DNA from: an uncultured Acidobacteriia bacterium
GTDB taxonomy: Bacteria > Acidobacteriota > Terriglobia > Bryobacterales > Bryobacteraceae
Assembly: GCA_903881085.1 (NCBI GenBank)
Contig: CAIRSA010000558.1
Span: forward strand, 1 to 64,000
DNA: 64,000 bases
Reading direction: 5' to 3'
Shown here: positions 851 through 35,303 of the stretch, piece after piece
Layout: each line of letters starts with the position of its first letter
Position numbering within the stretch: position 1 is the first letter of the stretch
Translations under genes and position numbers: made by a program
Notes under the pieces: model-generated
The model's input: only the letters and a program-made list of their open reading frames with translations
Told to the model about the DNA's origin: nothing
The model's database searches: none

Positions 851-1831
851 ATGAGCACCGCTCCAGAACCCGTCCGCGACCTCGTCCTGGTAAAGAACAA
901 CCAACTTCCCGGCATCGTCGCCAGGGCAGGGAAGGCGGCAACCTTCGCCGCCGATGAATTCTTCTTTGGCCGCATCCGCAATGAACACACCCGCCGCGCA
1001 TACTTCGCCGCGGTCAAACGGTTTTTGGTTGTGGCAGAAGCAAACGGGTTGGACTTGGCAGGGATCACGCCTGGGTTTGTCGGTCAATACCTCGACGGGC
1101 TACGGAAAGCCAAACTCAGTGTCGCAACGTGCAAGCAACACCTGGCCGCGCTGCGCCACTTCTTCGATGGAATGGTGACGCGGCATGCGATCGTTTTGAA
1201 CCCGGCGCTGTCGGTTCGCGGCGAACGTTATGAAGTTGTGGAAGGTAAAACGCCGGAAATAACGGTCAAGGGCGCCCGCACATTACTGGCTTCGATCAAC
1301 GCAACGAACCTGGTCGGTCTTCGCGATCGCGCCGTCGTCGCCATCTTGATATACACCGCCGCCCGCGCCGGTGCGGTGGCTGGGCTCCGGCGCGACAGTC
1401 TTTACAATTCCGGCGAGCAGTGGATGCTCCACTTCGACGAGAAGGGCGGCAAGTCGCGCGAGATCCCTGTCCGCCACGATCTCGAACAAATGCTTTTTGA
1501 ATACATTGATGCGGCTGGAATTGGCGGGGCAGGCAAAGAGACTCCCCTATTCCGGACGGCCCATCGCAAAAGCGGCCTACTCACCGCGACCTCCATGTCA
1601 GGGGTGGACGTCTGCCGCATGGTGAAGCGGCGGCTTCGTGACGCCGGTCTCCCGACGCGGCTCTCGCCGCACTCTTTCCGCGTCACCACGATCACCGACC
1701 TGCTTGAACAAGGTGTGCCACTCGAAGACGTCCAGCGCCTCGCCGGCCACGCCGATCCGCGCACCACGCGTCTCTACGACCGCCGCGACAAAACAATCAC
1801 GCGCAACATCGTAGAAAGAATATCGATTTAA
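851..1831 (+). CDS. Tyrosine recombinase (phage-integrase/XerCD family)
   Basis: This 326-residue protein should cut and rejoin DNA at a specific site through a covalent tyrosine intermediate. An N-terminal SAM-like core-binding domain (about residues 33-125) is followed by the catalytic domain. The expected catalytic residues are visible: Arg172 in TAARAG, a likely Lys in the GGKSRE hairpin near 201, His274 and Arg277 in SPHSFR, His300 in AGHADPRTT and the nucleophile Tyr309 in RLYDRR. The length is normal for the family and nothing is missing. It stands alone at the left edge of an island whose right edge carries a truncated second copy (from about 22768), so it is the likely integrase of that island. 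Substrate site unknown. Confidence 0.93.
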   Translation: MSTAPEPVRDLVLVKNNQLPGIVARAGKAATFAADEFFFGRIRNEHTRRAYFAAVKRFLVVAEANGLDLAGITPGFVGQYLDGLRKAKLSVATCKQHLAALRHFFDGMVTRHAIVLNPALSVRGERYEVVEGKTPEITVKGARTLLASINATNLVGLRDRAVVAILIYTAARAGAVAGLRRDSLYNSGEQWMLHFDEKGGKSREIPVRHDLEQMLFEYIDAAGIGGAGKETPLFRTAHRKSGLLTATSMSGVDVCRMVKRRLRDAGLPTRLSPHSFRVTTITDLLEQGVPLEDVQRLAGHADPRTTRLYDRRDKTITRNIVERISI

Positions 1832-7566: not shown

Positions 7567-7638
7567 ATGGAAGAGTCGGAGATATTCAAGTCCGACGGTT
7601 TGGACGTAAGCACTACAGCAAGTGAGGCAATATCATGA
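7567..7638 (+). CDS. Small 23-aa ORF coupled to the next gene
   Basis: An ATG at 7567 is preceded by a perfect AGGAGG (7556-7561) with 5-nt spacing and reads 23 residues (MEESEIFKSDGL...), ending in a TGA that overlaps the ATG of the next gene as ATGA. The ribosome site is far better than that of the following gene, so it may be a leader peptide that brings ribosomes to it. No homologue is known to me. Confidence 0.4.
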   Translation: MEESEIFKSDGLDVSTTASEAIS

Positions 7639-9045: not shown

Positions 9046-9189
9046 ATGGCAGTTTGCTCAAAGTGCAAGACCGTTTTGATACCCTGTTCGGAATGCAATG
9101 GATCGGGTAAACAGGGAATGTCCGGGAACAAGTGCGCGAAATGTAATGGGACTGGCTCCGTATGCCACGTTCATGGCGGCAAACATTAG
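9046..9189 (+). CDS. 47-aa stand-alone DnaJ-type zinc finger
   Basis: An ATG at 9046 behind GGAAGGAA gives 47 residues: MAVCSKCKTVL, then CSECNGSG, then CAKCNGTG, ending in CHVHGGKH. The two CxxCxGxG repeats are the signature of the cysteine-rich zinc-binding domain of DnaJ (Hsp40), which normally has four such repeats next to a J domain; here the zinc finger is on its own. It lies about 2.8 kb upstream of an Hsp70 gene in the same orientation, so it may contribute the client-binding part of a split Hsp40. Confidence 0.75.
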   Translation: MAVCSKCKTVLIPCSECNGSGKQGMSGNKCAKCNGTGSVCHVHGGKH

Positions 9190-9470
9190 ATCAAGAGAGG
9201 GACTGAGGGCGCGCCCGTGCTGGATCGGGTGACCCACCACGTTCGCATCCCGGACTGAGCGGAGACAGCTCCGGCGCAGGAAGCGCAAAAAGAAGGAGGT
9301 CCCAGGCTCTACATAGCGCCGAACCTCCGATCTGAACCCGACGGCGAATGGGGTGGTAGTCCCTTTTCCTTCGCCGCGGCGGGGACCATTCACTCCGCTC
9401 TTGACAATATGGGATACAATACTATCGGGTTTTAGCAACAATTCATTCAGACAGGCAATGGAGGTGGTTC
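9190..9470. other. Intergenic spacer
   Basis: No gene is seen. The last 25 bases include a GGAGG (9460-9464) that serves the next gene. Confidence 0.35.
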
Positions 9471-9671
9471 ATGGACGACGCAGCAGGGGCCATTGGCGGG
9501 CTCCTTTTAATCGGGTTGGTTATTGCCGTGGTTGCAGCAATCATTGCGATGGCTACCATGATTTTTTCCGCACTAGCCGGTGCCGGAGGTCTCTTCGGGG
9601 CGGGTACTGCATTACAAAATTACATAACCGCGTTTCGCAGGAACGTTAGCTTCGAGCGCGTTCCGGCGTAA
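9471..9671 (+). CDS. 66-aa glycine/alanine-rich membrane protein
   Basis: The ATG at 9471 follows GGAGGTGG at 6-nt spacing. Residues ~7-42 form one long or two short hydrophobic segments rich in Ala, Gly, Ile and Val, followed by a soluble tail with FRRNV. It is probably an inner-membrane small protein. It lies 47 bp upstream of a membrane-anchored GTPase with which it may interact; this is inference from position only. Confidence 0.6.
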   Translation: MDDAAGAIGGLLLIGLVIAVVAAIIAMATMIFSALAGAGGLFGAGTALQNYITAFRRNVSFERVPA

Positions 9672-9680
9672 CACAATCGG

Positions 9681-9700
9681 GCGACCCCGCGAGGGGTCGC
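9681..9700 (+). terminator. 8-bp hairpin between membrane protein and GTPase genes
   Basis: GCGACCCC / GGGGTCGC form a perfect 8-bp stem with a GCGA tetraloop 9 nt after the stop of the small membrane protein. No U tract follows, so it is more likely an attenuator, an mRNA-processing or a stability element than a full terminator. Confidence 0.4.
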
Positions 9701-9718
9701 CTGTTCGGAGCAACAAGA

Positions 9719-11113
9719 ATGGCAAGACAAGCGGAGCCCGCAATCAAAAGTTATTACTTTGGCAAAGGTTACGCCGACCTTTGGGCGACCATTCGCTCTG
9801 CGTGGGACTTGAACAAAAAGTCCGCAGAGGAATACAGGGGCAAAGCCACTACGGCAGAAGGGGCTTGGTCGGTCTTATGGTGGGCCGCCGCCATTGCCGT
9901 CGTGGTTTTCGGGACAACCTTCTTTGTGATCGCGTCTGCGGTTCATGTGGTAGTTCTTTTGGTGTTCTTCGGCTTGATTTACATCAGCTTCTCATTGGTG
10001 TATTTGACGGAGCGGGGCTATCTGCTGTTGAAACGTTATCGGTCCGTGTGCCCGCACTGCAGCGAGAAACTGGACCTTCCCCATTATTACTGTGACAAGT
10101 GCACAGAAGTCCATAGGCGATTGATCCCTTCAAGCTACGGAATTCTTCATCGTATCTGCAAATGTGGGCAAAAGTTGCCGACCACATTTTTCACAGATCG
10201 TGGACGGCTTCAGGCTACTTGCCAAAAGTGCAACGGACTGTTGCACCGAGGACACGTGGAGTCCCGGAAGTTGTTTATTCCCGTAATTGGCGGGCCGTCG
10301 GTTGGAAAGTCAGCATTCCTTTACTCGGCGATTTGGCGCTTTGTGGAAGATGAGTTGCCTTCACGGCGGTTTACATCGAAATTCCTTGAGTCGCGCGACG
10401 AGAGCAATTACCAGGCCGTTACAGGTCAGTTGAAGCTGGGTCGTGTTCCGGACAAGACGAGGACGGCAATGCCTTCCGCCTTCAATATTTCGGTTCAAGG
10501 TCCGACCGGACAGCGAGTTTTCTATCTCTACGATCCAGCAGGGGAAGCCTTTGAAACCGCAGGGGCGCTCGCGGACCACAAGTATCACGGCTTTTCAAGC
10601 GGCTGCATTTTTCTGATCGATCCGTTTTCTCTGCCAGAGGTGCGTCAGTCTTATCGCGATCAATTGACGGAAATGGCAGCGGCCGTAAAACCTGGCCCGA
10701 GCGCGGTGGATGATACGTTGAACCGGATGGTATTAAGTTTGGAAGAGAACTTCGGTTTATCGAAGACTGGGCGGGCTACATTTCCATTAGCAGTTGTAGT
10801 GAGTAAGATCGACGCGTTTGGGTTGGGCATGGAAATCGGGACTTCGCCGGCGGCGGCTGACGGTTCCAGGGAGGATCCTGTCCGGGCATGGTTACGAAAA
10901 AGGGGACAGTCGGGTTTAGTGCAGAAGCTGGAGGCTCGATTTACTAATGTTGGCTATTTCGCTTGTTCCGCGCTCGGTCGAGTTCCAGACCAGTCGGCGA
11001 GCGGTTTTCTGCCGTCAGGAGTCCTTGATCCGGTTCGCTGGATACTGAGCGAAGCGGACGCGTCGTTTTTCCCGCAGAACGTTCGTCCCATGGCTCGTGC
11101 GGCAGGTCGTTAA
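9719..11113 (+). CDS. Membrane-anchored zinc-ribbon GTPase
   Basis: A 464-residue protein. Two hydrophobic segments (about residues 50-97) are followed by two zinc-ribbon units (CPHC 111-114 with CDKC 125-128; CKCG 147-150 with CQKC 168-171) and a TRAFAC-like GTPase domain: P-loop GGPSVGKS at 191-198, a G3-like DPAGE starting at Asp272, and a G4-like SKID at 362-365. This matches what I know of the 'double-GTPase/DO-GTPase2' proteins found in bacterial conflict clusters. The soluble domain should face the cytosol. It starts the core operon with GrpE, Hsp70 and a second GTPase. The membrane anchor suggests that the machine acts at the envelope. Activity is predicted from motifs; the exact GTPase subfamily is uncertain. 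Confidence 0.8.
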   Translation: MARQAEPAIKSYYFGKGYADLWATIRSAWDLNKKSAEEYRGKATTAEGAWSVLWWAAAIAVVVFGTTFFVIASAVHVVVLLVFFGLIYISFSLVYLTERGYLLLKRYRSVCPHCSEKLDLPHYYCDKCTEVHRRLIPSSYGILHRICKCGQKLPTTFFTDRGRLQATCQKCNGLLHRGHVESRKLFIPVIGGPSVGKSAFLYSAIWRFVEDELPSRRFTSKFLESRDESNYQAVTGQLKLGRVPDKTRTAMPSAFNISVQGPTGQRVFYLYDPAGEAFETAGALADHKYHGFSSGCIFLIDPFSLPEVRQSYRDQLTEMAAAVKPGPSAVDDTLNRMVLSLEENFGLSKTGRATFPLAVVVSKIDAFGLGMEIGTSPAAADGSREDPVRAWLRKRGQSGLVQKLEARFTNVGYFACSALGRVPDQSASGFLPSGVLDPVRWILSEADASFFPQNVRPMARAAGR

Positions 11114-11127
11114 GGAATACCGCCTCA

Positions 11128-11802
11128 ATGGATGACGCACTAGATCGAAACGAATTGAGGGAGCTTCTGCCTGAGAGTGGGCAGAGGGTACAGGAAGCAT
11201 CCACTACGTTGCCGATGGATCCCCTACTTGCGGGAAGCATTGAGGCAGTAGAGGGGCGAATCGAGCGGGGTTTTCAAAGGGTCCTCGACGCGTTTGAACG
11301 GAAACTCGCATTCGATCAGCATAAGGAATCACAGATTGGCCGAATGCACGAAGAGTTGCAACGCCACCGCTCAAACCTGCTGGCTCAAGCGATGCGGCCG
11401 CTGATCGGCGGGATCATCCGTACGCACGACGACGCTAATAAGATCGCGCAGGCTCTTGGACGCAAAGACCCGGCGGAGTTGACGCCTGAACGGGTCGCCA
11501 AAGTGCTAGCTGGCTTGTGCGAAGACCTTGAATTGGTGCTGGAACAGAATGGCGTCACGGTCTTCCGGGAACACGGAGAGGGCTTCGACCCCCGCAGACA
11601 GCAGGCAGTACGGAAGGTCTCAACCCCAGATGTCGGCGCGGCGGGCAAGGTGGCCGAACGAATTCATCCGGGGTTCGAACTGGACGGCCTGTTGATCCAA
11701 AAGGAACGTGTATCGGTCTATGTTATGTCCACCCCAGCTCCGGGAGCACCCGGCGATATGCCAGAAGCTTCCGCGAACCAGCCGGAGAGGACCGATGCGT
11801 AA
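11128..11802 (+). CDS. GrpE-like nucleotide-exchange factor
   Basis: A 224-residue protein with a long helical N-terminal half (about residues 35-90) and a GrpE-type C-terminal beta head recognisable at EHGEGFDPRRQQAV (near 150) and VAERIHPGFELDG (near 175-190), the equivalents of the conserved GrpE segments. GrpE dimers open the Hsp70 nucleotide site to release ADP. It is divergent from housekeeping GrpE and lies 31 bp upstream of an Hsp70 gene, so it probably serves only the Hsp70s of this operon. The tail after residue 205 is Pro/Ala-rich and disordered. Confidence 0.75.
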   Translation: MDDALDRNELRELLPESGQRVQEASTTLPMDPLLAGSIEAVEGRIERGFQRVLDAFERKLAFDQHKESQIGRMHEELQRHRSNLLAQAMRPLIGGIIRTHDDANKIAQALGRKDPAELTPERVAKVLAGLCEDLELVLEQNGVTVFREHGEGFDPRRQQAVRKVSTPDVGAAGKVAERIHPGFELDGLLIQKERVSVYVMSTPAPGAPGDMPEASANQPERTDA

Positions 11803-11832
11803 GTTAGCCAGCGAGATTTCAGGAGACTTTTA

Positions 11833-13506
11833 ATGGGCACGAAGCGGGTTTATGGCATCGATCTGGGAACCACCTATTCATGTATCGCATACGTGGATGA
11901 GCATGGCAGGCCAGTGGTCGTTCCAAATGCCGAGAACGAAACGACAACGCCTTCGGTGGTGTATTTTGAGGGGAAAGATAGCATCGTCGTAGGGAACACA
12001 GCCAAAGAGCAGGCGGAAATCGTGCCGGAGCGTTGCGTAACGACGGTGAAGCGCAACATGGGTAATCCCGACTGGGAGTTTGCCGCCGACGGCAAAGTCT
12101 ACAAGCCGCAGGATATCTCCTCCTTCATCCTCCGCAAGGTGGTCGAAGATGCCCAGGCGATTACGGGCGACAGCATCAAGGACGTGGTGATCACTTGCCC
12201 CGCCTACTTTGGTCTCAACCAGAAGGAAGCAACCAAGCAGGCCGGGGCCTTGGCAGGGTTGAACGTGCTCTATGTGATTCCCGAGCCCACCGCAGCGGCG
12301 ATCGCCTACGGCATGGAACAGGAAACGGATCAGACGATTCTGGTCTACGACCTTGGAGGCGGAACGTTCGATGTCACACTGATACGCGTGGCCGCCGGCG
12401 AGATCACGGTGCTTACGACGGGCGGGGACGATAAACTGGGCGGCCGGAACTGGGATGAAGCCGTGGTGGATTATCTGGCGCATGGCTTCGAGGCGGAGAC
12501 CGGAACTGCTGCAACTGAAGTCACGGGCAACCGCGAGACCTATCAGGGAATGCTGAATTCGGCTGAGCGGGCCAAGAAGAAGCTGTCCAGCGCTCTGGCA
12601 ACCAAGGAAAAGGTTCAGCACGACACAGACCGCGCCACCGTCGAAATCACACGTCAGAAATTTGACGAAATCACTGGTCCATACCTGGAGCGGACGATCA
12701 GCCTTACAAAAGACCTGCTGGCCCGGGCGGCGGCTAAGGGCCATTCCGCCCTCGACAAGGTCCTGTTGGTTGGGGGGTCTTGCTATATGCCCCAGGTTTT
12801 GGCTCGCGTCGCGAGAGAGATCCCGGCCGAAGTCAAGATGTTCGATCCGAATCAGGCGGTGGCGAAAGGTGCGGCGATCTTCGGTTTCAAGTGCTTTCTG
12901 GATCGTGAGATCAAGATTCGCATAGCGGGGCAAACCGGCGAGAAGCCCGATGAGGTGCGGCCAGATGCGGCTCCGGCGGCGGTCCGTGAACAAGCGCAGC
13001 GCGAGGTCGCGGAGTCGCTAGGTCTTGCCCTTCCCAGCGTCAGGAAACTGACTAACGCAACCATTAAGAACGTTTCCTCTAAAAGCTTCGGGCTGGTGGT
13101 GCTGGACCGGGCGACGAACACTGAGGTTGTAACCAACCTTATCGTGATCGACGACCCGGTTCCGAAGACTACCACCCAGAAGTTTTCCACTCATTCCGAA
13201 GGGCAGACTGACGTCGAACTGGTTCTCATGGAGAACCAGGACCGGGGCGGGCCGGGAAAGCACGTGGCTGTTAGTGCGTGTGAAGAGATCCGCCGTGAAG
13301 TTCTGGAGTTTGGCCGGGGCCTGCCGACCGGTTCCCCTATCGAGGTTACGTTCGCGCTTGGCCCGGACGGATTGCTGAGTGTCGATTCCCGTGATTTGAC
13401 GACGGGGCGTGCGCTCCACGTAGACCACCAGACAGCAAGCATCATGAGCAAGGAAGAGATTGAAGTTGCGCGCAGCCGCAACCTTGCCATGCAGGTGGGC
13501 GGATAG
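11833..13506 (+). CDS. Hsp70 (DnaK-type) chaperone
   Basis: A 557-residue Hsp70. The ATPase domain is complete: phosphate-1 GIDLGTTYSC near residue 8, IPEPTAAAIAYG near 150, phosphate-2 LVYDLGGGTFDVTL near 173 and the adenosine-binding VLLVGGS near 312. The substrate-binding part (about 395-540) is recognisable but diverged, and the helical lid with the EEVD-like tail of DnaK is missing, explaining the length below the usual ~640. A GGAG precedes the ATG. It is followed after 2-20 bp by a second Hsp70 fused to a vWA domain. A specialised chaperone of this operon and not the housekeeping DnaK. Confidence 0.92.
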   Translation: MGTKRVYGIDLGTTYSCIAYVDEHGRPVVVPNAENETTTPSVVYFEGKDSIVVGNTAKEQAEIVPERCVTTVKRNMGNPDWEFAADGKVYKPQDISSFILRKVVEDAQAITGDSIKDVVITCPAYFGLNQKEATKQAGALAGLNVLYVIPEPTAAAIAYGMEQETDQTILVYDLGGGTFDVTLIRVAAGEITVLTTGGDDKLGGRNWDEAVVDYLAHGFEAETGTAATEVTGNRETYQGMLNSAERAKKKLSSALATKEKVQHDTDRATVEITRQKFDEITGPYLERTISLTKDLLARAAAKGHSALDKVLLVGGSCYMPQVLARVAREIPAEVKMFDPNQAVAKGAAIFGFKCFLDREIKIRIAGQTGEKPDEVRPDAAPAAVREQAQREVAESLGLALPSVRKLTNATIKNVSSKSFGLVVLDRATNTEVVTNLIVIDDPVPKTTTQKFSTHSEGQTDVELVLMENQDRGGPGKHVAVSACEEIRREVLEFGRGLPTGSPIEVTFALGPDGLLSVDSRDLTTGRALHVDHQTASIMSKEEIEVARSRNLAMQVGG

Positions 13507-13526
13507 GCGTGGAGGATGCGCCAGCC

Positions 13527-15614
13527 ATGGGAATCGCATTTGGAATCGACCTTGGAACTACGAACTCAGCGATCGCCTACGTGGATGAGCGGGGCAGGGC
13601 GCTAGTCATTCCCAACCGGTCCGGCTCTCCCATCACGCCCTCGGTTGTTTGTTTTGCAGCAGGGCGGACTGTGGTGGGGGAAGATGCCAAGGAACTCCAG
13701 GCCGCGGGGACCGTCTGCGCAGCATTCTTCAAACGAAAAATGGGGGATGCCAACTTCATCTTTTGCGGCGACGGCGTTGACTACGCTGCGGAGGATTTGT
13801 CCGCTTGCGTGTTGCGGAGTCTGGCCGACGACGCGAAACAGCGTCTGGGTGTGGAAGTTTCCGATGTGGTCATTTCTGTTCCGGCCTATTTTAAGAACGC
13901 CCAGCGCGAAGCCACCCGCGAGGCCGGGAGGCGCGCGGGACTAAACGTCCTGCAAATGATCAACGAGCCAACAGCCGCCGCCTTGGCGTACAGCCCCGCA
14001 GCCCCATCCCGTGAGGAGACGCTCCTGGTTTACGATCTGGGCGGGGGGACGTTCGATGTCACACTGCTTAGGCGCAGTCGCGATGAAATCCACGTCCTGA
14101 CCTCTAACGGCGACCATGAGCTTGGTGGAAAAGATTGGGATGACCGCTTGATATCCTTCGTGGCTTCCCGCTTCCGCGACGAATTCGGCGTGGATCCGCT
14201 GTCCGACGTGGTCAGTCTGGGCGAGCTTTTGGTGCGTGTCGAGGAGACAAAAAAGCGTCTGTCGGCGGTCCAGACGGCTACGATATCGATTGTCCACGAC
14301 GGCAACCGCGGGAAGTATGAGATTGACCGCGCCACCTTCGCCGACATGACGCGCGATTTGATGGAGCGCACGGTTTCACTTACCAGTGGGGTGCTGGCGG
14401 AGCACGGGTTGCGTGCGGGCGCGGTGGATGGCGTAATCCTTGTGGGTGGTTCCACTCGCATGCCAATGGTTCGCGAATTCATCGAGAGGACGTTTGGCAA
14501 GCCGCCGCGAACAGGCGTCAACGTGGACGAGGCCGTGGCTGCGGGCGCGGCCATTGCGGCCCAGAGCCCACCCCCCCAGTCTCATTCCGGCTTCAGTCTG
14601 GGCCCGCGACAGAGGCTGCGGGACGTGACTAACCATAGCCTCGGCATGATCGCGCTGAACGAGGACAGAACCGCTTACATCAACAGCATAATTCTACCCA
14701 AGAACGCTTCAGTACCGGGTGCTCAGATACGGCCCTACCGGCATCGCGTGCGATCCAGCGGGGGGCAAATCGAGGTCTTTATGACTCAAGGTGAATCGGA
14801 GAGTCCGGCTGACGTGTCATACCTCGGAAAACATGTCGTCCGCTTGCCGACGGGGACCATGAGGGGAGAAGTCGTCGTCGATATCGAGTACACCTATGAC
14901 GTGAGTGGCACGGTGTCGATCAAAGCGCGGGACCGGGCAAGCGGTGGGGGGCTGGAGGTCACGAACGAACCGCTTCCACCTGACGTACCGGCGCGCTTCC
15001 TGACAGTCCCCCAGGAAGTTGCGCCGGTTCACGTAACCGCGTATCTTTGCTTTGACGTGTCGGGGTCGATGTCTGGTGGCCCTCTTCAGGAGGCGCAGAA
15101 AGCCGCCCGAAGATTTTTGGAAAACACCGATCTCGGCCATTGTTCCCTTGGCATCGTGGCTTTTTCCGACGCGGTGCGAATCAAGCTGCAGGCCTGCCAG
15201 AACGCCGGGAAGGTGGAGGGAGCGATTAGCGATCTGCGCGTCGGGGAAACGGGCGGCTGCAATGGGGCGCACCCGTTCGACGACCTGTTCGGCTTACTGC
15301 GCAAACAGGAAGGCCCGCGCTTCGCCATTGTACTTACCGATGGCTCGTGGAGTTGCCAGCCGCAAGCGGTAACGGCGGCTCGGAAATGCCACGAAGCGGG
15401 CATTGAGGTGGTAGCGGTTGGCTTTGGTGGGGCGGATCGCGAGTTTCTTAAACAAATTGCTTCTTCCGATGAAGGTGCCTTCATGACCGGTTTGGGAGAG
15501 CTAGTGGAGACGTTCACATCCATTGCCCAGGTGTTGACGGCTCCAGCCGATCGCGAATCGAGTACGGTAGGCGGAAAGCCCCGGTTCGGGTTTCTACGGG
15601 GGAAGGGTAAGTGA
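13527..15614 (+). CDS. Hsp70-vWA fusion protein
   Basis: A 695-residue protein. Residues 1-350 are a full Hsp70 ATPase domain (GIDLGTTNSAIAYV, NEPTAAALAY, LVYDLGGGTFDVTL, VILVGGSTRMP), residues ~360-490 a degenerate substrate-binding domain, and from ~501 a von Willebrand A domain with an intact MIDAS motif DVSGSMS and a downstream VLTDGSW. The vWA part would bind a protein partner through a metal ion. I chose ATG 13527, which follows GGAGGA, over the GTG at 13509 that would add six residues. It lies directly after the first Hsp70 gene, and its stop overlaps the GTG of the next gene. An ATP-driven Hsp70 switch joined to a vWA adhesion module is unusual. Confidence 0.9.
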   Translation: MGIAFGIDLGTTNSAIAYVDERGRALVIPNRSGSPITPSVVCFAAGRTVVGEDAKELQAAGTVCAAFFKRKMGDANFIFCGDGVDYAAEDLSACVLRSLADDAKQRLGVEVSDVVISVPAYFKNAQREATREAGRRAGLNVLQMINEPTAAALAYSPAAPSREETLLVYDLGGGTFDVTLLRRSRDEIHVLTSNGDHELGGKDWDDRLISFVASRFRDEFGVDPLSDVVSLGELLVRVEETKKRLSAVQTATISIVHDGNRGKYEIDRATFADMTRDLMERTVSLTSGVLAEHGLRAGAVDGVILVGGSTRMPMVREFIERTFGKPPRTGVNVDEAVAAGAAIAAQSPPPQSHSGFSLGPRQRLRDVTNHSLGMIALNEDRTAYINSIILPKNASVPGAQIRPYRHRVRSSGGQIEVFMTQGESESPADVSYLGKHVVRLPTGTMRGEVVVDIEYTYDVSGTVSIKARDRASGGGLEVTNEPLPPDVPARFLTVPQEVAPVHVTAYLCFDVSGSMSGGPLQEAQKAARRFLENTDLGHCSLGIVAFSDAVRIKLQACQNAGKVEGAISDLRVGETGGCNGAHPFDDLFGLLRKQEGPRFAIVLTDGSWSCQPQAVTAARKCHEAGIEVVAVGFGGADREFLKQIASSDEGAFMTGLGELVETFTSIAQVLTAPADRESSTVGGKPRFGFLRGKGK

Positions 15615-18600
15615 GCGGGCGTCCAAATTTCTATATCCTGCTGGAACTCGATCCAGGTATTGACGACTTGCAGGCCATTGAGCGGCGTCTGGTTGAGAAG
15701 CAGCGCCGGTGGTCGCAGGACAGCACACAGGGCAACCCAGCGGATCAGCGCAAGGCCAGCGTGAATCTAAAGCTGATCGACGACATCAGGACCACGCTGT
15801 CGAACCCGGAGTCTCGCCGCGAGGAGGCTCGCATCGCCCGGGTTGAACTGGGTCGGCTAACCGAGGCACGAGGCAAGGAACTGGACGGAAAACTATCGCT
15901 ACTGCTGGCCACCAAAGGCAAATGCTCGATTGAGGCAATCCGTTTGCTCGTCAAGCAACTGGAAGGAGCCTTTACCGAACAACAAGTGGTCGAGAGGCTG
16001 CGCCAAGCAGGAATATCGATTGCCGACGAGACAAGTCGCCCGAAACAGCATACGAAAGAGCGGCTGGATCCAGCCGTCGACTCAAACATTCGCCGCAACA
16101 TCGAGCATCTCGGACTGAAAAGCCTGTACGATCTGCTCAAGATGACCCCGCGGTCGTCTCCACAAAGCTTGTGGGACTGCGCCAATGAGATGAACCAGCA
16201 GATTCTGGCGGTGGGAAAAACCGACCCAGATTCCTCTGCTCGCAAAGAGCTGTACGGCTTCTGCCTCGCCTTTTTCCGCGACGAGCGCGAAAAGGAGAAG
16301 TACGACAACACACTTGCGCTCGAGAGTCTGAAGCAACTGGACGGCGACATCGACTTCCTCGGAGCCAAAGACAAGTTTCTTGATCTGGCCCAACAGGCTG
16401 CCCTGATTGAGCGGGCTCGCGAGCGCGGCGTGCCTGCAGCCGACGCGCGCGAATACTTAGCCGAGCATGCTGCCAAGCGTAAGTGGAACATGCAGCCGGC
16501 GGCGCAGGCAACGCCACAGCCGCAAGCCAGGTTGTGCGGCTATTGCTACAAGCTCTCGCCGTCCGGAGCTGACGGACATTGCCCTCATTGCGGTGAAGCG
16601 CTGGTTGTGCCCTGCCCGAGATGCAGCGCACCGACTCCGACCCAGGATCCGTCCTGTTCGCGATGCGGGTGTCATACCGGGGACGCACCAGTGGTAACCG
16701 CCTTATTCAGAGAGGCGGAAGTCCTGGGTAAGAGCCACGACTATGAAGGTGCGATTAAGCGCCTGGACCGAACGCTGGTGTACTGGCCCGATTGGCCAGC
16801 GGCACTGGCACAGAGGAAGCTATGGGAGGGGCATAGTCAAATCCGCGACGCATGCATCATTGAGGCTCGAGGCCTTGCAAACTCCGGGAAGATGCTGGCG
16901 GCGAGCGAAGCGCTGGTGCGATTGGAAGTCGAACATGGATGGCAGGACCAGGAACTGCGGCAACGGGTGAGCGCGGCAATTCAGAAGGCACGGCAAGCAG
17001 CGGAAAGGGGAGATGTTCACCGCCGTGCGAGTAAGGAGGATGAGGCACTGGAGGAGTATAGTGTCGCGTTGAGCATGTGCGGAGACTTGGAAGCGGCTCG
17101 ACACGCGCTCTCTTTGATACCGCCGCGCACGCCGGAAGGCCTCAAGGTAGCAGCCATGCAGCGCAGCTTCAGTCTAAATTGGCAGGAAGTCAAGACTCGG
17201 CGGGGCGTGGAGTACAAAGTATTGCGCAAAGTGGGTGGCGTTCCTTCAAGCGACGCCGACGGCGAAGTTCTCGCGTGTTTGCCTGGCACCCGGTTTGACG
17301 ACCTGACGGCATCGACAGGCGTTGCCTGGCACTACGCCGTCTATGCGGTTCGCGACGGCGTAGCCTCAAGCGACGCGGCGCGTAGCGGGCCGCATCTGCT
17401 AACAGCGGAAGTCGAGGCGATCAAGGTCCATTCCGTTGACGGTCAGGTCATGCTGAGTTGGCAACCTCCAGCCGGTGCCAGGAGAGTTGAAGTCTGGAGG
17501 TCCTCAGGGACTCCTCCAACGAGTCCAGGCGACGGGCGAAGAGTCACAGTTTCCGGCAACAGCGCTGTGGACACGAACTTGGTCAACGGTTCGACGTACC
17601 TTTACCAGCTCTTCGTAGTTTTCGATCACCCGGGGCTGGCGGGTGGTGAAATTCTAACGCAAGGCACAACTGTTTCAGCGGTTCCGGCGGCCCCTCCAAC
17701 GCCGGTTGTGGATATGCAGGTCAGGGTTGCGGGCAAGCTCGCAATCCTGACCTGGACGCCCGTGCGTGGTGCCTCGGTCCAGATCCGCTATTCCACCGAT
17801 CCCTTGCCGCTAGTGCAAGGTACTGTGTTTTCTCCAGGTGAGGTGAGCCGTTATGGAGTTCTCGCGACTAACACGGACACAGCCTCGGCCCAAATTGCTC
17901 TGACGTCGCCGGGTACCGTATATTTTGTCCCATTCTCGGTGACGGATGCGATTGCGGTGGCCGGAAAAGTTGTGTCTTTATCCAACGTGGATAATGTCAC
18001 CGGATGCTCCGCGAGGTCGACTGACCGGCACATCATCCTGCAATGGACTTGGCCTGCTGGAATCGAGGAGGCGCTGATTCGCTATGACTTCAATAAGGCG
18101 CCTGCGGAACCCCAAGGAGGCGATGCACCCCGTCTCCGGGTCACGAGGGCTGAGTATGAGCGCGCGGGTTATTGGGAATTGAAGGTCGATACACCGCAAT
18201 CGCACCACTTCACCATCTTCGCGAGAGGGGCCGGAATGGAAGCCTACTCCTCTGGCGTCGGAGTCGTTGCGTCGATGGGTAAAGCCGTTTCGGTGAACTA
18301 CCGCGTGGTGGTCCGGAGGAACCTGTACCCGCGCCGCATCAGGGAAGCTTGGGTCGAATTGACTTCCGACGAGTGCCGCAGCTTGCCTGGGCTGGAACTG
18401 CGACACCAAAGGGGGCAACCGCCGGTCTTTCAGACTGATGGTCAATCGCTGGTCAATTTACCCAGCCTTGACCTGAAGGACGGACGCGCCCGGATCGATA
18501 TTCCACAAGCCGGATGGGACCCGGACACCTACATTAAACTCTTTCTCACCGACCCCAGTCAAGCAAGCCAGGTTCGGCTATTACCATCCCGCAAAGAGAA

Positions 18601-18616
18601 TTTACTTGTGAATTGA
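15611..18616 (+). CDS. J-like, zinc-ribbon, FN3 multidomain protein
   Basis: A 1001-residue protein starting at a GTG that overlaps the stop of the vWA-Hsp70 gene. Residues ~5-85 resemble a J domain (NFYILLELDP...) but lack the HPD tripeptide needed to trigger Hsp70 ATPase. Residues ~175-240 resemble a second J-like or helical module. Residues ~308-355 contain three zinc-ribbon knuckles (CGYC, CPHCG, CPRC, CSRCG). Then a TPR-like helical stretch (~360-500) and at least three fibronectin type III-like beta domains (~500-880) with repeated 'LSW/LTW' strands. The start and domain order suggest a scaffold joining the Hsp70 pair to the GTPases. No signal peptide, so FN3 domains act in the cytosol. 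Confidence 0.75.
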   Translation: MSGRPNFYILLELDPGIDDLQAIERRLVEKQRRWSQDSTQGNPADQRKASVNLKLIDDIRTTLSNPESRREEARIARVELGRLTEARGKELDGKLSLLLATKGKCSIEAIRLLVKQLEGAFTEQQVVERLRQAGISIADETSRPKQHTKERLDPAVDSNIRRNIEHLGLKSLYDLLKMTPRSSPQSLWDCANEMNQQILAVGKTDPDSSARKELYGFCLAFFRDEREKEKYDNTLALESLKQLDGDIDFLGAKDKFLDLAQQAALIERARERGVPAADAREYLAEHAAKRKWNMQPAAQATPQPQARLCGYCYKLSPSGADGHCPHCGEALVVPCPRCSAPTPTQDPSCSRCGCHTGDAPVVTALFREAEVLGKSHDYEGAIKRLDRTLVYWPDWPAALAQRKLWEGHSQIRDACIIEARGLANSGKMLAASEALVRLEVEHGWQDQELRQRVSAAIQKARQAAERGDVHRRASKEDEALEEYSVALSMCGDLEAARHALSLIPPRTPEGLKVAAMQRSFSLNWQEVKTRRGVEYKVLRKVGGVPSSDADGEVLACLPGTRFDDLTASTGVAWHYAVYAVRDGVASSDAARSGPHLLTAEVEAIKVHSVDGQVMLSWQPPAGARRVEVWRSSGTPPTSPGDGRRVTVSGNSAVDTNLVNGSTYLYQLFVVFDHPGLAGGEILTQGTTVSAVPAAPPTPVVDMQVRVAGKLAILTWTPVRGASVQIRYSTDPLPLVQGTVFSPGEVSRYGVLATNTDTASAQIALTSPGTVYFVPFSVTDAIAVAGKVVSLSNVDNVTGCSARSTDRHIILQWTWPAGIEEALIRYDFNKAPAEPQGGDAPRLRVTRAEYERAGYWELKVDTPQSHHFTIFARGAGMEAYSSGVGVVASMGKAVSVNYRVVVRRNLYPRRIREAWVELTSDECRSLPGLELRHQRGQPPVFQTDGQSLVNLPSLDLKDGRARIDIPQAGWDPDTYIKLFLTDPSQASQVRLLPSRKENLLVN

Positions 18617-18634
18617 GCGAAGCCGATCCATTAT

Positions 18635-19819
18635 ATGTTTGAATCATTGAAAGCCACGCTGAGAAAGGAAACCTGCCCATTCTGTTTTGAACGGTTTGGA
18701 CTGAAAGACGCTCCTTTCCGCTGCAAGAACAAGCGCTGCAAAGTACAGACTCGGGACGAAATATTATTCAAGGCCTGGGATGACGGCCGCCCCACGGGCA
18801 GGGTGATCCCGCCGCGATGGGGGCTCTCGTCCGGAATGGCCTGCCCGGAATGCCGTGAAGAGGCCCGAAAGCGCCTCTGCCCAGCCTGCCACATGGACTT
18901 GCCGCACACAGTCGGCAAGTCTCGCAACTATATCTTTGCCCTGATTGGCGGCAAGGATTCGGGCAAGAGCCACTATCTGGCGGTTTTGATCCATCAAATA
19001 CAAAATGTGCTGGGACCGGATCTCAACATGCTACTGGAGCCGCTGAATGAAGATACCATTAAGCGATACCGCGAGAACTTCCACGATCCTGTTTACAAAT
19101 CGCATATAATAATCCGCACGACGCAATCCGGGTTTACCGACCGAACGGTGCAAGTCCCTATGATTTACAGTCTGACACTCATTGGAAAAAGCGTTAGGGG
19201 AAAACAGAAAATAGTTGCCGCGGTCAACCTGGTATTCTTCGACACGGCGGGCGAAGATCTAAGGGATCAGGACTTGATGGCGACGGTAAATAAGTACATT
19301 TACTGTGCGGATGGCATTATCCTGCTGCTTGATCCGCTGCAATTGCCCTGGGTTCGGGATCAGTTCAGCGGCCACACCACGCTTCCCGCGTCTACGGATG
19401 AAACGTCCGAGATCGTGACGCGGACCAGCAACCTGATTGTGGCGGGACGGCACCTAAAGGCCAACGTCAAAATTCCGACTCCGCTGGCGGTTGCCTTCTC
19501 AAAAAGTGATGCCGTCGCTACTCTGATCGACACGCAGATGCAGATGAATGCCTCGCCTCGGCACGCCGGTGGTTTGGACGTCGCCGATCAGAGTGCCGTA
19601 AGCGACGAGATGCAATCGTTGCTAGCGCGCTGGAACGGAGGCTACCTTGTGCAGCAGGTGTCGACTCGCTATGAGAAGTTTTCGTTTTTCGGGCTGACCG
19701 CCTTAGGTTGCAATCCGCACGTTGACGGAAAAATCCCGCGAGTAATTCCCCATAGAGTAGAGGACCCATTCTTGTGGCTTTTATACCAGCAAGGTCTTAT
19801 CAAGGGCGCGAAATTATGA
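18635..19819 (+). CDS. Zinc-ribbon GTPase (second of the operon)
   Basis: A 394-residue soluble protein. The N-terminal ~90 residues hold three cysteine pairs (CPFC 14-17, CKNKRC 30-35, CPEC 70-73, CPAC 82-85). The GTPase domain has P-loop GGKDSGKS at 105-112, G3-like DTAGED from Asp203 and a G4-like SKSD at 289-292. It resembles the membrane GTPase at 9719-11113 but lacks the transmembrane part. The stop codon overlaps the likely start of the GAP1-like gene (ATGA), which indicates a partner relation. Confidence 0.82.
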   Translation: MFESLKATLRKETCPFCFERFGLKDAPFRCKNKRCKVQTRDEILFKAWDDGRPTGRVIPPRWGLSSGMACPECREEARKRLCPACHMDLPHTVGKSRNYIFALIGGKDSGKSHYLAVLIHQIQNVLGPDLNMLLEPLNEDTIKRYRENFHDPVYKSHIIIRTTQSGFTDRTVQVPMIYSLTLIGKSVRGKQKIVAAVNLVFFDTAGEDLRDQDLMATVNKYIYCADGIILLLDPLQLPWVRDQFSGHTTLPASTDETSEIVTRTSNLIVAGRHLKANVKIPTPLAVAFSKSDAVATLIDTQMQMNASPRHAGGLDVADQSAVSDEMQSLLARWNGGYLVQQVSTRYEKFSFFGLTALGCNPHVDGKIPRVIPHRVEDPFLWLLYQQGLIKGAKL

Positions 19820-22386
19820 GAACGGGGACAATGGCGCTCCAACATTACTACACGTCTTGTCGTCGCGGAATGGGCGGGGGCCCGGGGTTTCAAATGCGGT
19901 CCGTCACGCAGGGGCTGGACTCTTCGGATCGAACCGATGTCGAACGACGGGGATCTTATACGGCGCCCCGCGGTGTCCCCATGGAGCCTTCCGCAGAAGA
20001 GATTCGCGGCGTGTATCCGACGGCGATGCGCTATTACCGACTGGGGTCCGGACGGTGGGCGCTGACTCTCTCCAGCTATGTGGGCAAGGACTACAGCGGG
20101 CGCTGGGGTAATTACTTCGCTCATACCCTCGTTGTCGACGCTGTGCACTTACCCGTTTGGCCCCTCGACTACTACGAGTGGAATGGGTGGAAAAGGTGCC
20201 TACTACCTGACGAAGATTCCGACGTCGCGCCTGAGCCATTACCTTCAGTGCTTCTCGCGGATATTGCTCCCGGACAATCTTTTTCTTTCGAAGAACTGCG
20301 GTTGTTCATCGCCGAAGCGCCGGAGAGAAAAGCCCTTCTAGCAACCATGGTGCGGGCGGTGCTCCACAATACGGCGACATCCCGGGCCGTGATGATTCGC
20401 GACAGTTTTTTGAACGGCTTGTTTTGGACGGCTTGCGTTCATAAGTCTTTTCCGCTTCCTTATGCGAAGCATTTGAGCCTCTCCACGTATCAGTTTGATG
20501 AACGGAACTGCGCGGTGATTAACGCAACCGTGCCTGGCACACAGCTCACCTGCGATGAGGCGCAAGCAAAATACCAATTCTTTGTGTTCGATTTGATCGA
20601 GGGCCGAAACAGCCAGGTCCCAGCCGCTGGTCAAGGCTACGCGGATGCAGTATCCGGCTGGTTGGCAGATGGGCCCGAGCCAATTGAAAGTTTTTTCCGG
20701 TTCACCTCCCTGTTCAGCCACGAACAGGCCGAGCCTAGTTTGGATGCCCTTGCATGGCTTTACCGCTGGAGCATTGACGACCGCGTAACTCTGAATGCGA
20801 AGCAGCGGGCGGCTGTCCTGGCGTTCGCTGAGCGCCATGTTCGCCCTGGGAAACACGGCGAGGTGCTGCCTGGGTTATCGCGAATCGCCTCGACATTGGA
20901 CGGCCCGGAAACAGGCCAAGAGCAGCGTTGCTATCTGCGCTTTCTCGCCCACTGTGCGGCGAACAGCGGCGAGGTTCATCATCGCCACCAGACGATTCAG
21001 TTGTGGCTCGATATCTTTGACCGTTTCATTGCCAACGATCCGGCGCTGGTGGACGACGCTAGACGAGATCTGTTCGAGTCCCTGCGCGGCTTCGCGGCGG
21101 AGATTGCCGCGGGCTTTCTTGGCGCGAGGCATTGGGGACAATTCAAGTCGCACCTCGGTTCGCTGGTTCCAGACGTATTAGAGAGGGTTTTATCCGAGGT
21201 TCAGGCAGCGAACAGGGAACTCGGTCGGTATCCCACTTGGGATCAGCCAGAAGCCCGAACGGTCATTACGGCTTTGCTCCGCTCCGGGGAACCGCTGGAT
21301 CAAGCGGCCGAGCGCATTCTACGGGTACTCGGAGCAGATGAAGACTCTGTAGTGGGACTCTGCCGTTCCGCCATGGAGGGCGAAGACACTCTTGCGGAGA
21401 ACCGAGGTGAGGCGTTCGGACGCGCCCTAGCACGAATCTTGGCAGCAAAACGTCCGGCGTTCGCGCAGTCCGTTCGAAAGCGGCTGGACGATACCGGTGC
21501 GACGGCGGTACTTTATGGGGAGTTGACCTATGCTAGGGTTCAATGGACCGACGCCGAGGCTTCCTACCAGCGCTACGCGCAATCGGTGCTGCGGGAACTA
21601 CCCGGCTACGAACGCAAATACGGCGAACGGATCGCGCGGGAACTGGTTGCCGACTGGCAAAGGGATCGCATCGGACGTCAGGCGAAACGATGGCTGGACG
21701 GGCTGGATATCCCTTCTGCCTCGACCGGGTTTCTTCGCCAGTGCGTGCTTTGGGTGAATGCAGCCCTGCCTCTTGATTCAAGAAATAGTGAATGGACCGA
21801 GTGGGCGTTCCGTCTAGAGGAGCTTGCACGCAAGTACGACGTTCGGCTTATTCCCAACCGCCCAGCGCTGCGAATCCGGATGCGGGACGCGCGTGATGGG
21901 AAGACGGCGCAGATTGAGGGACTCGCTGAAGAACTTAATGGAATCGACGCGACTGGATATCGAGAGTTCCTGGATGTTTTTCTGCAACCTTGTTTAACCA
22001 GCGCCGGTGCTAAGCCAGAGTTGCATGGAAAGGTGTTATGGGCCGTCGTTCGAAAGGAGCATGAAACCGAATTATGGAATTCCTATCGGCGGGTGCTGAG
22101 TGCCGGGCGCTCTTCTGAATTCGCGGCGATAGAAGAAAATGCTCTGATTTTCTGGCTCGGTTCTTCCTCTCGGGAGAATCGTTGGGACGGGTTGAGAAGT
22201 GATGCTATTAACGTTCTGGTCGAACGGCTGGCGCAGCTTAGCTCCAAACGGTTGGCTGAGTTGGAACGAGTAATCCTGGAGCACTCCCTGAACCCGGTGA
22301 TGTGGAAGCAGCTACGAGAGCGTGTGGAGCGTGAACGACCGAGCTGGAACAAGCTGTTAACGCTTTTTACCCGCAAGAAGAGTTGA
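19816..22386 (+). CDS. GTPase-associated protein (GAP1-like)
   Basis: An 856-residue soluble protein. Its N-terminus (LQHYYTSCRRG...GPGFQMRSVTQGL) matches what I remember of GAP1-N ('GTPase-associated protein 1') domains, which start with a YTSC motif and a GxGFQ element; the middle and C-terminal helical regions would be GAP1-M and GAP1-C. No catalytic motif is obvious. The ATG at 19816 overlaps the upstream GTPase stop (ATGA); a longer frame from 19774 lacks an advantage. GAP1 proteins are linked with DO-GTPases in predicted conflict systems, where they may regulate the GTPase or act as the effector scaffold. It is the last gene of the operon. Confidence 0.7.
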   Translation: MRTGTMALQHYYTSCRRGMGGGPGFQMRSVTQGLDSSDRTDVERRGSYTAPRGVPMEPSAEEIRGVYPTAMRYYRLGSGRWALTLSSYVGKDYSGRWGNYFAHTLVVDAVHLPVWPLDYYEWNGWKRCLLPDEDSDVAPEPLPSVLLADIAPGQSFSFEELRLFIAEAPERKALLATMVRAVLHNTATSRAVMIRDSFLNGLFWTACVHKSFPLPYAKHLSLSTYQFDERNCAVINATVPGTQLTCDEAQAKYQFFVFDLIEGRNSQVPAAGQGYADAVSGWLADGPEPIESFFRFTSLFSHEQAEPSLDALAWLYRWSIDDRVTLNAKQRAAVLAFAERHVRPGKHGEVLPGLSRIASTLDGPETGQEQRCYLRFLAHCAANSGEVHHRHQTIQLWLDIFDRFIANDPALVDDARRDLFESLRGFAAEIAAGFLGARHWGQFKSHLGSLVPDVLERVLSEVQAANRELGRYPTWDQPEARTVITALLRSGEPLDQAAERILRVLGADEDSVVGLCRSAMEGEDTLAENRGEAFGRALARILAAKRPAFAQSVRKRLDDTGATAVLYGELTYARVQWTDAEASYQRYAQSVLRELPGYERKYGERIARELVADWQRDRIGRQAKRWLDGLDIPSASTGFLRQCVLWVNAALPLDSRNSEWTEWAFRLEELARKYDVRLIPNRPALRIRMRDARDGKTAQIEGLAEELNGIDATGYREFLDVFLQPCLTSAGAKPELHGKVLWAVVRKEHETELWNSYRRVLSAGRSSEFAAIEENALIFWLGSSSRENRWDGLRSDAINVLVERLAQLSSKRLAELERVILEHSLNPVMWKQLRERVERERPSWNKLLTLFTRKKS

Positions 22387-22498
22387 TCTGCGTCTGGAAC
22401 GCTGTTAGCCGTTATCGCTCATAAACTACTAACAATCCAGTCCGGGCTCGATGGCTTGGAAGATTCTGTGCGCTTGACGCGCTCTGACCTAGGCTCCC
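22387..22498. other. Spacer after the GAP1-like gene
   Basis: No gene or hairpin terminator is apparent between the end of the operon and the MITE-like element. Confidence 0.3.
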
Positions 22499-22765
22499 GA
22501 GTAGCAAACGGACGGAAAACCGGGGTAAGGATTCCGATGTCCTCGGCGATTTCTGGAATCGATTGAATCTCAAGTGGATATCTGTTACATCCACATCTCC
22601 AGCTTTGCACCAGGCCACCGGTCGATTTGGGGGGGTGACTGAATCGCCGTTATCGGCGAGGTGCGATTTGCCGAAAATATGGGGTTTGGCACCCGCCCCA
22701 GGCTGTCGCCGCCGTTCTGATGCCGCCAGACTGGCTTAACCCGGTTTTCCGTCCGTTTGCTACTC
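22499..22765. mobile_element. MITE-like element with 31-bp inverted ends
   Basis: GAGTAGCAAACGGACGGAAA... at 22499-22529 is the reverse complement of 22735-22765, matching in 30 of 31 positions by hand count. The 267-bp element carries no convincing gene. Its right end meets the truncated recombinase copy within a few bases, so insertion or an associated deletion probably removed the 5' half of that recombinase. I see no clear target-site duplication. Confidence 0.75.
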
Positions 22766-22767
22766 AA

Positions 22768-23126
22768 CCCCCGACCTCGAACAGATGTTGTTCGAATACA
22801 TCAATGCGGCGGGTCTGGGCAAGGCCGGTAAAGACAGCCCGCTATTCCGCACTGCCTACCGCAAAAGCGGCCATCTTACCGAAAATTCCATGTCGGGGGT
22901 GGACATCTGCCGCATGGTCAAGCGCCGGCTGAAAGACGCCGGTCTCCCGGCACGGCTCTCGCCGCATTCTTTCCGCGTAACGACCATCACTGACTTGCTT
23001 GAGCAAGGCGTGCCGCTCGAAGACGTACAGCGCCTGGTCGGCCACGCCGATCCGCGCACTACGCGCCTCTACGACCGGCGCGACAAAAAGATCACCCGCA
23101 ATATTGTGGAAAGGATTTCGATTTGA
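22768..23126 (+). pseudogene. Truncated tyrosine recombinase (C-terminal half)
   Basis: From about PDLEQMLFEYI (22770) to the stop, this frame is a close copy of residues ~209-326 of the intact recombinase at 851-1831, including SPHSFR, the GHADPRTT box and the nucleophile in RLYDRRDK; I count roughly 14 differences over 113 residues. The core-binding domain and the first catalytic Arg are absent, cut off at the MITE-like element, so it should be inactive. It marks the right edge of the island. Confidence 0.9.
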
Positions 23127-35206: not shown

Positions 35207-35303
35207 GCCGTCAGAGGCATAACTGGCCTCAAATGCGGCGCGTTGCCGGTTGGTCGATCATTGAGGAACGAGTGCAAAGCCGTCGGGCCTTGTGGAGGTT
35301 ATT

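Follow-up and report, generated by a model that had tools for sequence, protein, structure and literature searches.

A candidate mobile conflict cassette with two lidless Hsp70 proteins, paired DO-GTPases and GAP1 in an uncultured acidobacterium

In the present work, a 64,000-nucleotide stretch of DNA from an uncultured Acidobacteriia bacterium of the Bryobacteraceae (assembly GCA_903881085.1, contig CAIRSA010000558.1, positions 1 to 64,000), referred to below as the window, was analyzed. Seven open reading frames (ORFs) follow one another on the plus strand between positions 9719 and 22386, separated by 2-30 nt or sharing 4 nt according to the ORF list. They encode two Hsp70-type proteins, one of which carries a vWA domain, a GrpE-like protein, a scaffold protein, two DO-GTPases and a GAP1 protein. 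In our view the chances are about even that this operon is a mobile conflict cassette, probably acting against phages, in which chaperones would gate a GTPase switch and which would form a distinct Hsp70-vWA lineage within the GAP1-N2 DO-GTPase kind of systems. The genes and their predicted products are as follows.

9719..11113, plus strand: DO-GTPase A, N-terminal hydrophobic/transmembrane (TM) segment, zinc ribbons, TRAFAC-like GTPase (GGPSVGKS, DPAGE, SKIDA); PF19993, E 3.7e-10
11128..11802, plus strand: GrpE-like nucleotide exchange factor; PF01025, E 7.1e-10
11833..13506, plus strand: Hsp70a, nucleotide-binding domain (NBD) and substrate-binding beta domain without alpha lid; PF00012, E 2.1e-99
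13509..15614, plus strand: Hsp70-vWA, nucleotide-binding domain, substrate-binding beta domain and vWA at the lid position; HSP70 2.2e-101, VWA 2.8e-16
15611..18616, plus strand: scaffold, putative J-like units at residues 1-82 and 165-245, double zinc ribbon 306-356, TPR 357-502, FN3-type sandwiches ~506-1001
18635..19819, plus strand: DO-GTPase B, N-terminal zinc ribbons, GTPase (GGKDSGKS, DTAGED, SKSDA); PF19993 and PF19975 weak, both below cut-off
19831..22386, plus strand: GAP1, with GAP1-N2, GAP1-M and a hypervariable alpha-helical C-terminal solenoid; PF20013 5.7e-31, PF20014 4.7e-6

The seven core genes had been recognized in an initial annotation made from the letters of the window, and their common direction with small gaps or overlap is borne out by the ORF coordinates. 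That annotation let the block begin at 9046, where none of its genes starts, the first one being located at 9719. It also placed the start of GAP1 at GTG 19774; ATG 19831 is likelier, as the Pfam match begins there, at residue 20 of the longer call, and the aligned homologues share a conserved start at this point. Since GAP1 most likely starts at 19831, the 46-nt overlap with the GTPase B gene is probably not real. For Hsp70-vWA, ATG 13527 is an alternative start. The proposed inventory of Hsp70s, GrpE, vWA module, FN3/zinc-ribbon scaffold, two DO-GTPases (one of them in the membrane) and GAP1 was confirmed by Pfam, motifs, fold and co-inheritance, and the profile searches suggested as a check detected DO-GTPase2, GAP1-N2 and GAP1-M above cut-off and GTPase B only weakly. 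The source genome is a draft of 588 contigs with a contamination of 5.4%. Predictions of promoters and terminators were no better than those for shuffles, no clear break in composition was seen (GC 0.54-0.61), and the window holds no tRNA.

The same gene set was found in other genomes. Genome contigs were searched with the substrate-binding/vWA half of Hsp70-vWA only, as an alignment of two sequences containing no GTPase or GAP1 sequence. 86 stretches matched the pattern and nine were confirmed, from a Blastocatellia metagenome-assembled genome (MAG), an Acidobacteria MAG, Thiomargarita nelsonii, Azospirillum oryzae, Thiohalocapsa sp. ML1, a deltaproteobacterial MAG, a Phaeospirillum MAG, a Planctomycetales MAG and Verrucomicrobium sp. 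BvORR034, which by record title span at least four phyla. Gene presence was assessed by tblastn of the window proteins, by searching the nine genomes with a scaffold profile and by applying profiles to further stretches. Hsp70a, the scaffold and GTPase B were detected in 9/9 genomes, as were GrpE and GAP1, each with one copy cut; in all nine loci GrpE adjoins Hsp70a, one locus being truncated at the contig end. GTPase A is present in seven of the eight genomes that could be checked, the Acidobacteria contig ending too early. It was not seen in the 8.5 kb past GAP1 in the deltaproteobacterium, in which GTPase B and GAP1 are carried by a second contig, the edge of which corresponds to the scaffold end. 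While GTPase A is the first gene in the window, it follows GAP1 wherever it was found in the other loci. In Thiomargarita, ~4 kb separate the scaffold from GTPase B, and GTPase A is followed by the GrpE-Hsp70 part. As the same set was recovered in 9/9 genomes without any GTPase or GAP1 sequence in the query, the co-location is not due to chance, and the concern voiced in the initial annotation that the genes might not be co-located elsewhere did not materialize. The neighborhood comparison proposed there for Acidobacteriota would have revealed little if limited to this phylum, as GAP1-N2 (PF20013) occurs in only 2/396 of its genomes; the conserved gene set becomes visible across phyla.

Both Hsp70 proteins retain their ATPase-site residues when aligned with the full-length DnaK encoded elsewhere in the same genome, which also encodes seven HPD-bearing J-domains. 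In Hsp70a six ATPase-site positions are identical in 10/10 rows, and in Hsp70-vWA four agree in 10/10 and two in 9/9 aligned rows, the Verrucomicrobium row being frame-shifted near its N-terminus. This Verrucomicrobium Hsp70-vWA (L023:6700-6810) spans two frames there; either the copy or the sequence is broken. The motif D-LGGGT-FD is invariant in both alignments. Hsp70a ends ~20 residues past the beta domain and therefore has no lid, and in Hsp70-vWA the vWA domain occupies the lid position. The metal site of the vWA (D-x-S-x-S, N and D) is invariant in 10/10 rows. Mean pairwise identity amounts to 55-56% for the nucleotide-binding domains and 52% for the vWA.

In Pfam, the scaffold shows only the double zinc ribbon, at a sub-threshold 3.7e-4, and its FN3 part has no match. 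An AF2 model (pLDDT 84.1, pTM 0.41, so that the relative placement of the domains is unreliable) displays a J-like helix order twice, the zinc ribbon, the TPR part and a chain of sandwiches; the best PDB match of the FN3 part in Foldseek is the fibronectin fragment Fn7B89 (3t1w) at E 7.5e-18. When hhalign profiles were compared, the first unit (J1) matched the seven J-domains of the same genome with 91% and E 1e-6, and 16 control helical segments gave 0.06-1.44%. By this comparison and its controls, J1 is a J-like domain at the level of sequence profiles. Residues 165-245 are probably a second J-like unit (J2), as judged from the helix order in the model; a direct comparison of J1 with J2 gave no match (0.7%). 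No HPD motif occurs within the J-like regions of 10/10 scaffolds. A lone HPD is found in the Planctomycetales scaffold beyond residue 600, outside these regions. With a J-like domain that has no HPD and two Hsp70s that have no lid, the earlier designation as a complete Hsp70 machine goes too far. The mean pairwise identity is 30-33% for FN3, 28% for the scaffold C-terminus and 27% for the TPR. Beside the full copy, the Blastocatellia locus contains a second, shortened scaffold (L015:5963-7513, 516 aa) that matches residues 1-300 only.

The GTPase motifs including DxAGE are present in 7/7 aligned rows of GTPase A and in 10/10 rows of GTPase B; Thiohalocapsa GTPase A stands outside the seven-row count and has the same motifs by eye. 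CxxC motifs are found in both DO-GTPases. A hydrophobic segment was seen in 7/7 rows of GTPase A, corresponding to residues 69-87 of the window copy. GTPase A scores above the Pfam cut-off and GTPase B below it (DO-GTPase2, 8.5e-5), and a tblastn search with GTPase A picks up genes for GTPase B (e.g. 8e-15). GTPase A of Verrucomicrobium carries a C-terminal PDZ domain and that of Thiohalocapsa PEGA-like repeats (read from the sequence by eye); the window protein ends shortly after the GTPase domain, with no such tail. No convincing relatives of the GTPases were found among solved structures. In the window GAP1, GAP1-N2 and GAP1-M are both above the Pfam cut-off. GAP1-C has no Pfam match in this protein, the model forming an alpha solenoid there. 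This AF2 model (pLDDT 77.7) is poor in its N-terminal part and all-helical from about residue 268, and the fold found no PDB match at E <= 0.001. Weak structural matches to HEAT/adaptor-like proteins were not used. The C-terminal thirds of GAP1, at 16-18% mean pairwise identity, are the most variable region of the cassette, compared with 40% for GAP1-N and 48% for the GTPase B domain.

Furthermore, the occurrence of the system was assessed. GAP1-N2 is found in 2/200 genomes of the family of the window, and in the second of these only a GTPase nearby matches the seven profiles. It occurs in 3/398 genomes of the phylum of Azospirillum, two of these matches being weak with in-frame stops, and in 49/288 genomes of that of Verrucomicrobium. 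A full-length scaffold is present in 1/294 genomes of the Planctomycetales phylum, namely that of the query itself, and six more genomes match only part of it. As a control, 20 verrucomicrobial GAP1-N2 places of 12-20 kb each were compared with the cassette profiles. They gave a GTPase match in 20/20 and a GAP1 match in 11/20 cases, and no match to Hsp70, GrpE or the scaffold (0/20 at E 1e-5). Since Hsp70 matches are absent from 20/20 of these sampled loci, the Hsp70-vWA cassette forms a distinct lineage. A GAP1-only query gave 7 pattern matches in genome contigs, 0 of which were confirmed. The GTPase B query detected only two Rhodococcus plasmids at 28%; by eye and without a family scan, the R. 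opacus locus looks like another theme of GAP1-type system.

Several features suggest that the operon is mobile. It is probably held by a ~21-kb island bounded by a recombinase gene and a related 3' fragment.

851..1831, plus strand: XerC/D-like tyrosine recombinase; PF00589 3e-20; TIGR02225 1.2e-30, below the equivalog cut-off
22490..22775, no strand assigned: ~286-bp element with perfect 26-bp inverted ends and a fold z of -7.2, abutting the recombinase fragment
22770..23126, plus strand: related recombinase 3' fragment, 87% amino acid identity over 118 residues to residues 209-326 of the left recombinase

The left recombinase and the fragment are 82% identical over 300 nt, compared with 26-39% for other matches in the genome. 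Integron models matched the recombinase far below cut-off, and it was rejected as an integron integrase. Two related copies of the 286-bp element (81-83%, one cut at the contig end) flank a ParD-family antitoxin gene on another contig of the same genome (C304), an arrangement that resembles a cassette between repeated sites. Within the class, 197/200 genomes gave no match to the element, and the two other matches span ~30 bases.

In a concatenated tree of 10 rows, Thiohalocapsa pairs with Azospirillum, and the deltaproteobacterium groups with Thiomargarita. Stars were given to six of its seven inner branches, but not to the one that joins the three acidobacterial rows (85/90); warnings were issued for long branches in the planctomycete and verrucomicrobial rows and for letter composition. 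The first pair recurs in 5/6 single-gene trees holding both partners (bootstrap 77-98) and the second likewise in 5/6 (bootstrap 72-100), grpE being the exception each time. Under a simple model and with groups picked after viewing the tree, approximately unbiased (AU) tests rejected forcing together the two gammaproteobacteria (p-AU 4e-59) and the two alphaproteobacteria (p-AU 1e-83). As the trees contradict taxonomy, the cassette moves, and its genes have for the most part moved together between taxa. No copy was present in 72,556 plasmid records, queried with the scaffold and with GAP1. Among viral contigs, 53 pattern matches yielded no confirmed relative. A phage origin was discarded: 24 phage records match Hsp70-vWA (8 of the 24 listed), and none covers 80% of it.

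The initial annotation had linked the GTPase/GAP1 genes to predicted conflict systems, in agreement with Kaur et al. (eLife 2020, PMC7159879), and had supposed that the combination may be new. This kind is already published there, as the second theme of the GAP1-N2 systems. In the sections of that paper on these systems, GAP1-N2 DO-GTPase systems are described that include HSP70, GrpE and a fusion of FNIII with DnaJ or TPR, with a predicted conflict or immunity role and a predominant distribution in actinobacteria and firmicutes. The cassette shares with this HSP70 theme the paired DO-GTPases with zinc ribbons and Walker-B glutamate, one of them with a TM segment, a GAP1 with N2 domain, an FNIII protein with DnaJ-like/TPR parts, and linked HSP70 and GrpE. 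However, the second HSP70 described there for a subset, and not as a defining trait, is without a peptide-binding domain, whereas that of the window keeps the beta domain and adds the vWA. Likewise unlike that description, both Hsp70s are lidless and the J-like domain has no HPD; the fastest-evolving part is the GAP1 C-terminus instead of the FNIII, termed rapidly evolving repeats by Kaur et al.; and the carriers belong to Acidobacteriota, Proteobacteria, Planctomycetales and Verrucomicrobium records. The terms "acidobacteri" and "Thiomargarita" are absent from its main text, and some of the loci may have been listed earlier in its source data. As far as the sections on these systems go, the vWA in place of the lid, the lidless partner Hsp70, the J-like domain without HPD (10/10 scaffolds), the hypervariable C-terminal solenoid of GAP1 and the TIR protein within the Thiohalocapsa operon are not found in Kaur et al. 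Thus, the cassette is a variant of the published GAP1-N2 DO-GTPase/HSP70 kind with its own lineage. Among the papers listed by the literature searches, none dealt with an Hsp70-vWA protein and no other one with DO-GTPases or GAP1-N2.

Parts of the arrangement have counterparts in other systems. MoxR-vWA ternary conflict systems (PMC7159879) likewise couple an NTPase chaperone to a vWA as threshold switch; there, the chaperone is the AAA+ protein MoxR, whereas here an Hsp70 is covalently fused to the vWA. CoCoNuT type IV restriction systems (PMC11090510) similarly comprise Hsp70-like NBD/substrate-binding domain (SBD) units and vWA proteins in predicted defense operons, but with McrB-like GTPases and McrC partners instead of DO-GTPases, and very poor ATP hydrolysis is attributed to their Hsp70-like units, whereas the ATPase-site residues of the cassette are intact. 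Phage sensing by bNACHT25 depends on DnaJ and provides a precedent for a DnaJ/DnaK cycle reporting phage infection to an immune protein; however, it relies on the host DnaJ and a NACHT protein, not on a GTPase/GAP1 operon (PMC12169576). Pam16 also has a J-like domain without HPD and regulates an Hsp70 motor, although it is mitochondrial and has Pam18 as partner, and no kinship is claimed (PMC12953747).

We infer a defense function. In its favor are the published kind, the gene set shared by nine other genomes and lacking its Hsp70, GrpE and scaffold parts at the verrucomicrobial control loci, the intact GTPase motifs and ATPase-site residues, the J1 match to DnaJ, the variable GAP1 C-terminus, the TIR protein of Thiohalocapsa, the mobility and the precedents of bNACHT25 and Pam16. 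The following working can be proposed. The lidless Hsp70a and Hsp70-vWA would capture peptides exposed on proteins that are unfolded, abundant or foreign and would be reset by GrpE, and the scaffold could dock both of them via its J-like and FN3 parts. Because it has no HPD, the J-like domain should recruit or restrain rather than trigger ATP hydrolysis, as Pam16 does for Pam18; the trigger would then come from a client-carrying host J-protein. Client capture may alter the assembly, and GAP1 could read this change, its variable solenoid serving as a sensor or an adaptor, and switch the DO-GTPase pair by recruiting the soluble GTPase B to the membrane GTPase A. The output would be a membrane-proximal assembly, supplemented in some copies by an accessory effector such as the TIR protein of Thiohalocapsa. 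A bolder version, which we regard as improbable, is a self-contained infection sensor in which a decoy Hsp70 pair, gated by a vWA clamp and accompanied by a blind J-like domain, is fired only by client-loaded host J-proteins. Overload with phage proteins would then lead to a GTPase-switched membrane assembly, and one mobile operon would guard the host DnaK/DnaJ cycle and bridge MoxR-vWA and DO-GTPase conflict systems.

A number of observations weigh against a chaperone-gated conflict cassette. The usual vWA metal-site motif has a Thr (PMC11090510), and in our reading of the alignment its middle Thr is replaced by an invariant Asn. J2 matches the J-domains non-significantly (4.3%, E 0.0095, hhalign), and a sequence search of solved structures with J1 gives a DnaJ protein at only E 0.59. 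PADLOC shows one weak match on the operon (0.0006), on the Hsp70 part, and matches only one of the ten window neighbors; no enzymatic effector was recognized in the window copy, and the defense- and phage-type families in the flanks of the loci, given without a background rate, are only suggestive. Among the papers listed by the literature searches, there was no functional study of any DO-GTPase/GAP1 system. Hsp70 complexes could also serve plain stress protection.

A dedicated stress or protein-quality machine for membrane or envelope proteins, with the GTPases recruiting to the membrane and no conflict role, is a possible although unlikely alternative. The Hsp70s being the best-conserved part (nucleotide-binding domains at 55-56%), the lack of a recognized enzymatic effector in the window copy and the membrane-bound GTPase would fit it; the patchy occurrence (GAP1-N2 in 2/396 and the full scaffold in 1/294 genomes) and the horizontal spread are, however, unlike housekeeping, the genome already has its DnaK and seven HPD-bearing J-domains elsewhere, and one operon contains a TIR protein. 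The PDZ and PEGA-like tails of GTPase A in Verrucomicrobium and Thiohalocapsa could instead read envelope ligands in membrane or cell-surface sensing by multicellular or aggregating bacteria, that is in developmental or kin signaling, with the Hsp70s assembling GTPase platforms, and Thiomargarita, a chain-forming giant bacterium, has the set. Yet GTPase A of the window has no such tail, and the cassette is mobile and sporadic across life-styles, making this reading quite unlikely. It is very doubtful that the operon is a selfish maintenance module of the island, serving the element rather than the host: the recombinase pair brackets it, and a TrwC relaxase and an integrase lie close to the Azospirillum and Phaeospirillum copies, but no toxin-antitoxin pair was recognized in the operon by Pfam, the 72,556 plasmid records held no copy, no relative was confirmed in viral contigs, and 0/24 matching phage records cover 80% of Hsp70-vWA. 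Should the conflict cassette be real and infection be sensed via its own Hsp70s, a chaperone cycle would be used as an immune sensor; even in a stress-only role, an Hsp70 with a vWA for a lid and a J partner without HPD would be an unusual chaperone design. The strain-named carriers Azospirillum oryzae A2P, Verrucomicrobium sp. BvORR034 and Thiohalocapsa sp. ML1 make the prediction of 2020 testable.

The neighbors of the other copies were surveyed as 80 non-core ORFs at loci L117-L126 and L088, a mechanical list in which some entries are probably not genes. At E 1e-3 no additional common gene or shared effector was found among the non-core ORFs of the ten loci. Among the 25 of 78 Pfam families listed, integrases and TIR occur twice each, and phage capsid, tail tube, tape-measure, TrwC relaxase, CHAT and clostripain once each; among the 25 of 124 PADLOC models listed are HEC-01/AriA-type ATPase, BrxB and SAVED-TIR models. 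A HEC-01B match of 1.4e-202 lies beside the Thiomargarita copy; of the nine further proteins scanned together with it, two match more weakly and seven not at all. A NACHT gene is found upstream of Verrucomicrobium GrpE and the TrwC relaxase near the Azospirillum copy. In Phaeospirillum (L122:3076-11114), the integrase follows directly past GTPase A, with a VapE/Toprim protein some kilobases further, as is found in phage satellites. The Thiohalocapsa operon carries, between GAP1 and GTPase A, the TIR protein (TIR_2, 1.2e-22) and an 899-aa protein with no Pfam match.

L119:12012-12644, minus strand: Thiohalocapsa insert, TIR protein
L119:12657-15356, minus strand: Thiohalocapsa insert, 899-aa protein

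A short His-rich stretch at the N-termini of both proteins recalls, by eye, effector-associated motifs.

Further genes of the window were considered. A CHAT-TPR protein (2265-7085, minus strand; CHAT 1.4e-57) lies inside the probable island and was rejected as part of the system, as no blastp relative was found among the flanking ORFs examined. So was a small protein (7635-8267, plus strand) that has a zinc ribbon at its C-terminus, as the other loci contain no relative; it is located 1.4 kb before the operon. Two minus-strand ORFs of the island, behind which the CHAT-TPR gene lies, look sigma- and anti-sigma-like by eye and have no family match. At 45435-50831 the window encodes a protein of 1798 aa that in part matches models of methyltransferases and DrmD/BrxH-type helicases, a make-up typical of mobile-element methylase-helicases. 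Finally, a 1624-aa protein (35292-40166) contains Soli_cterm, choice-of-anchor Z repeats and CFI-box domains.

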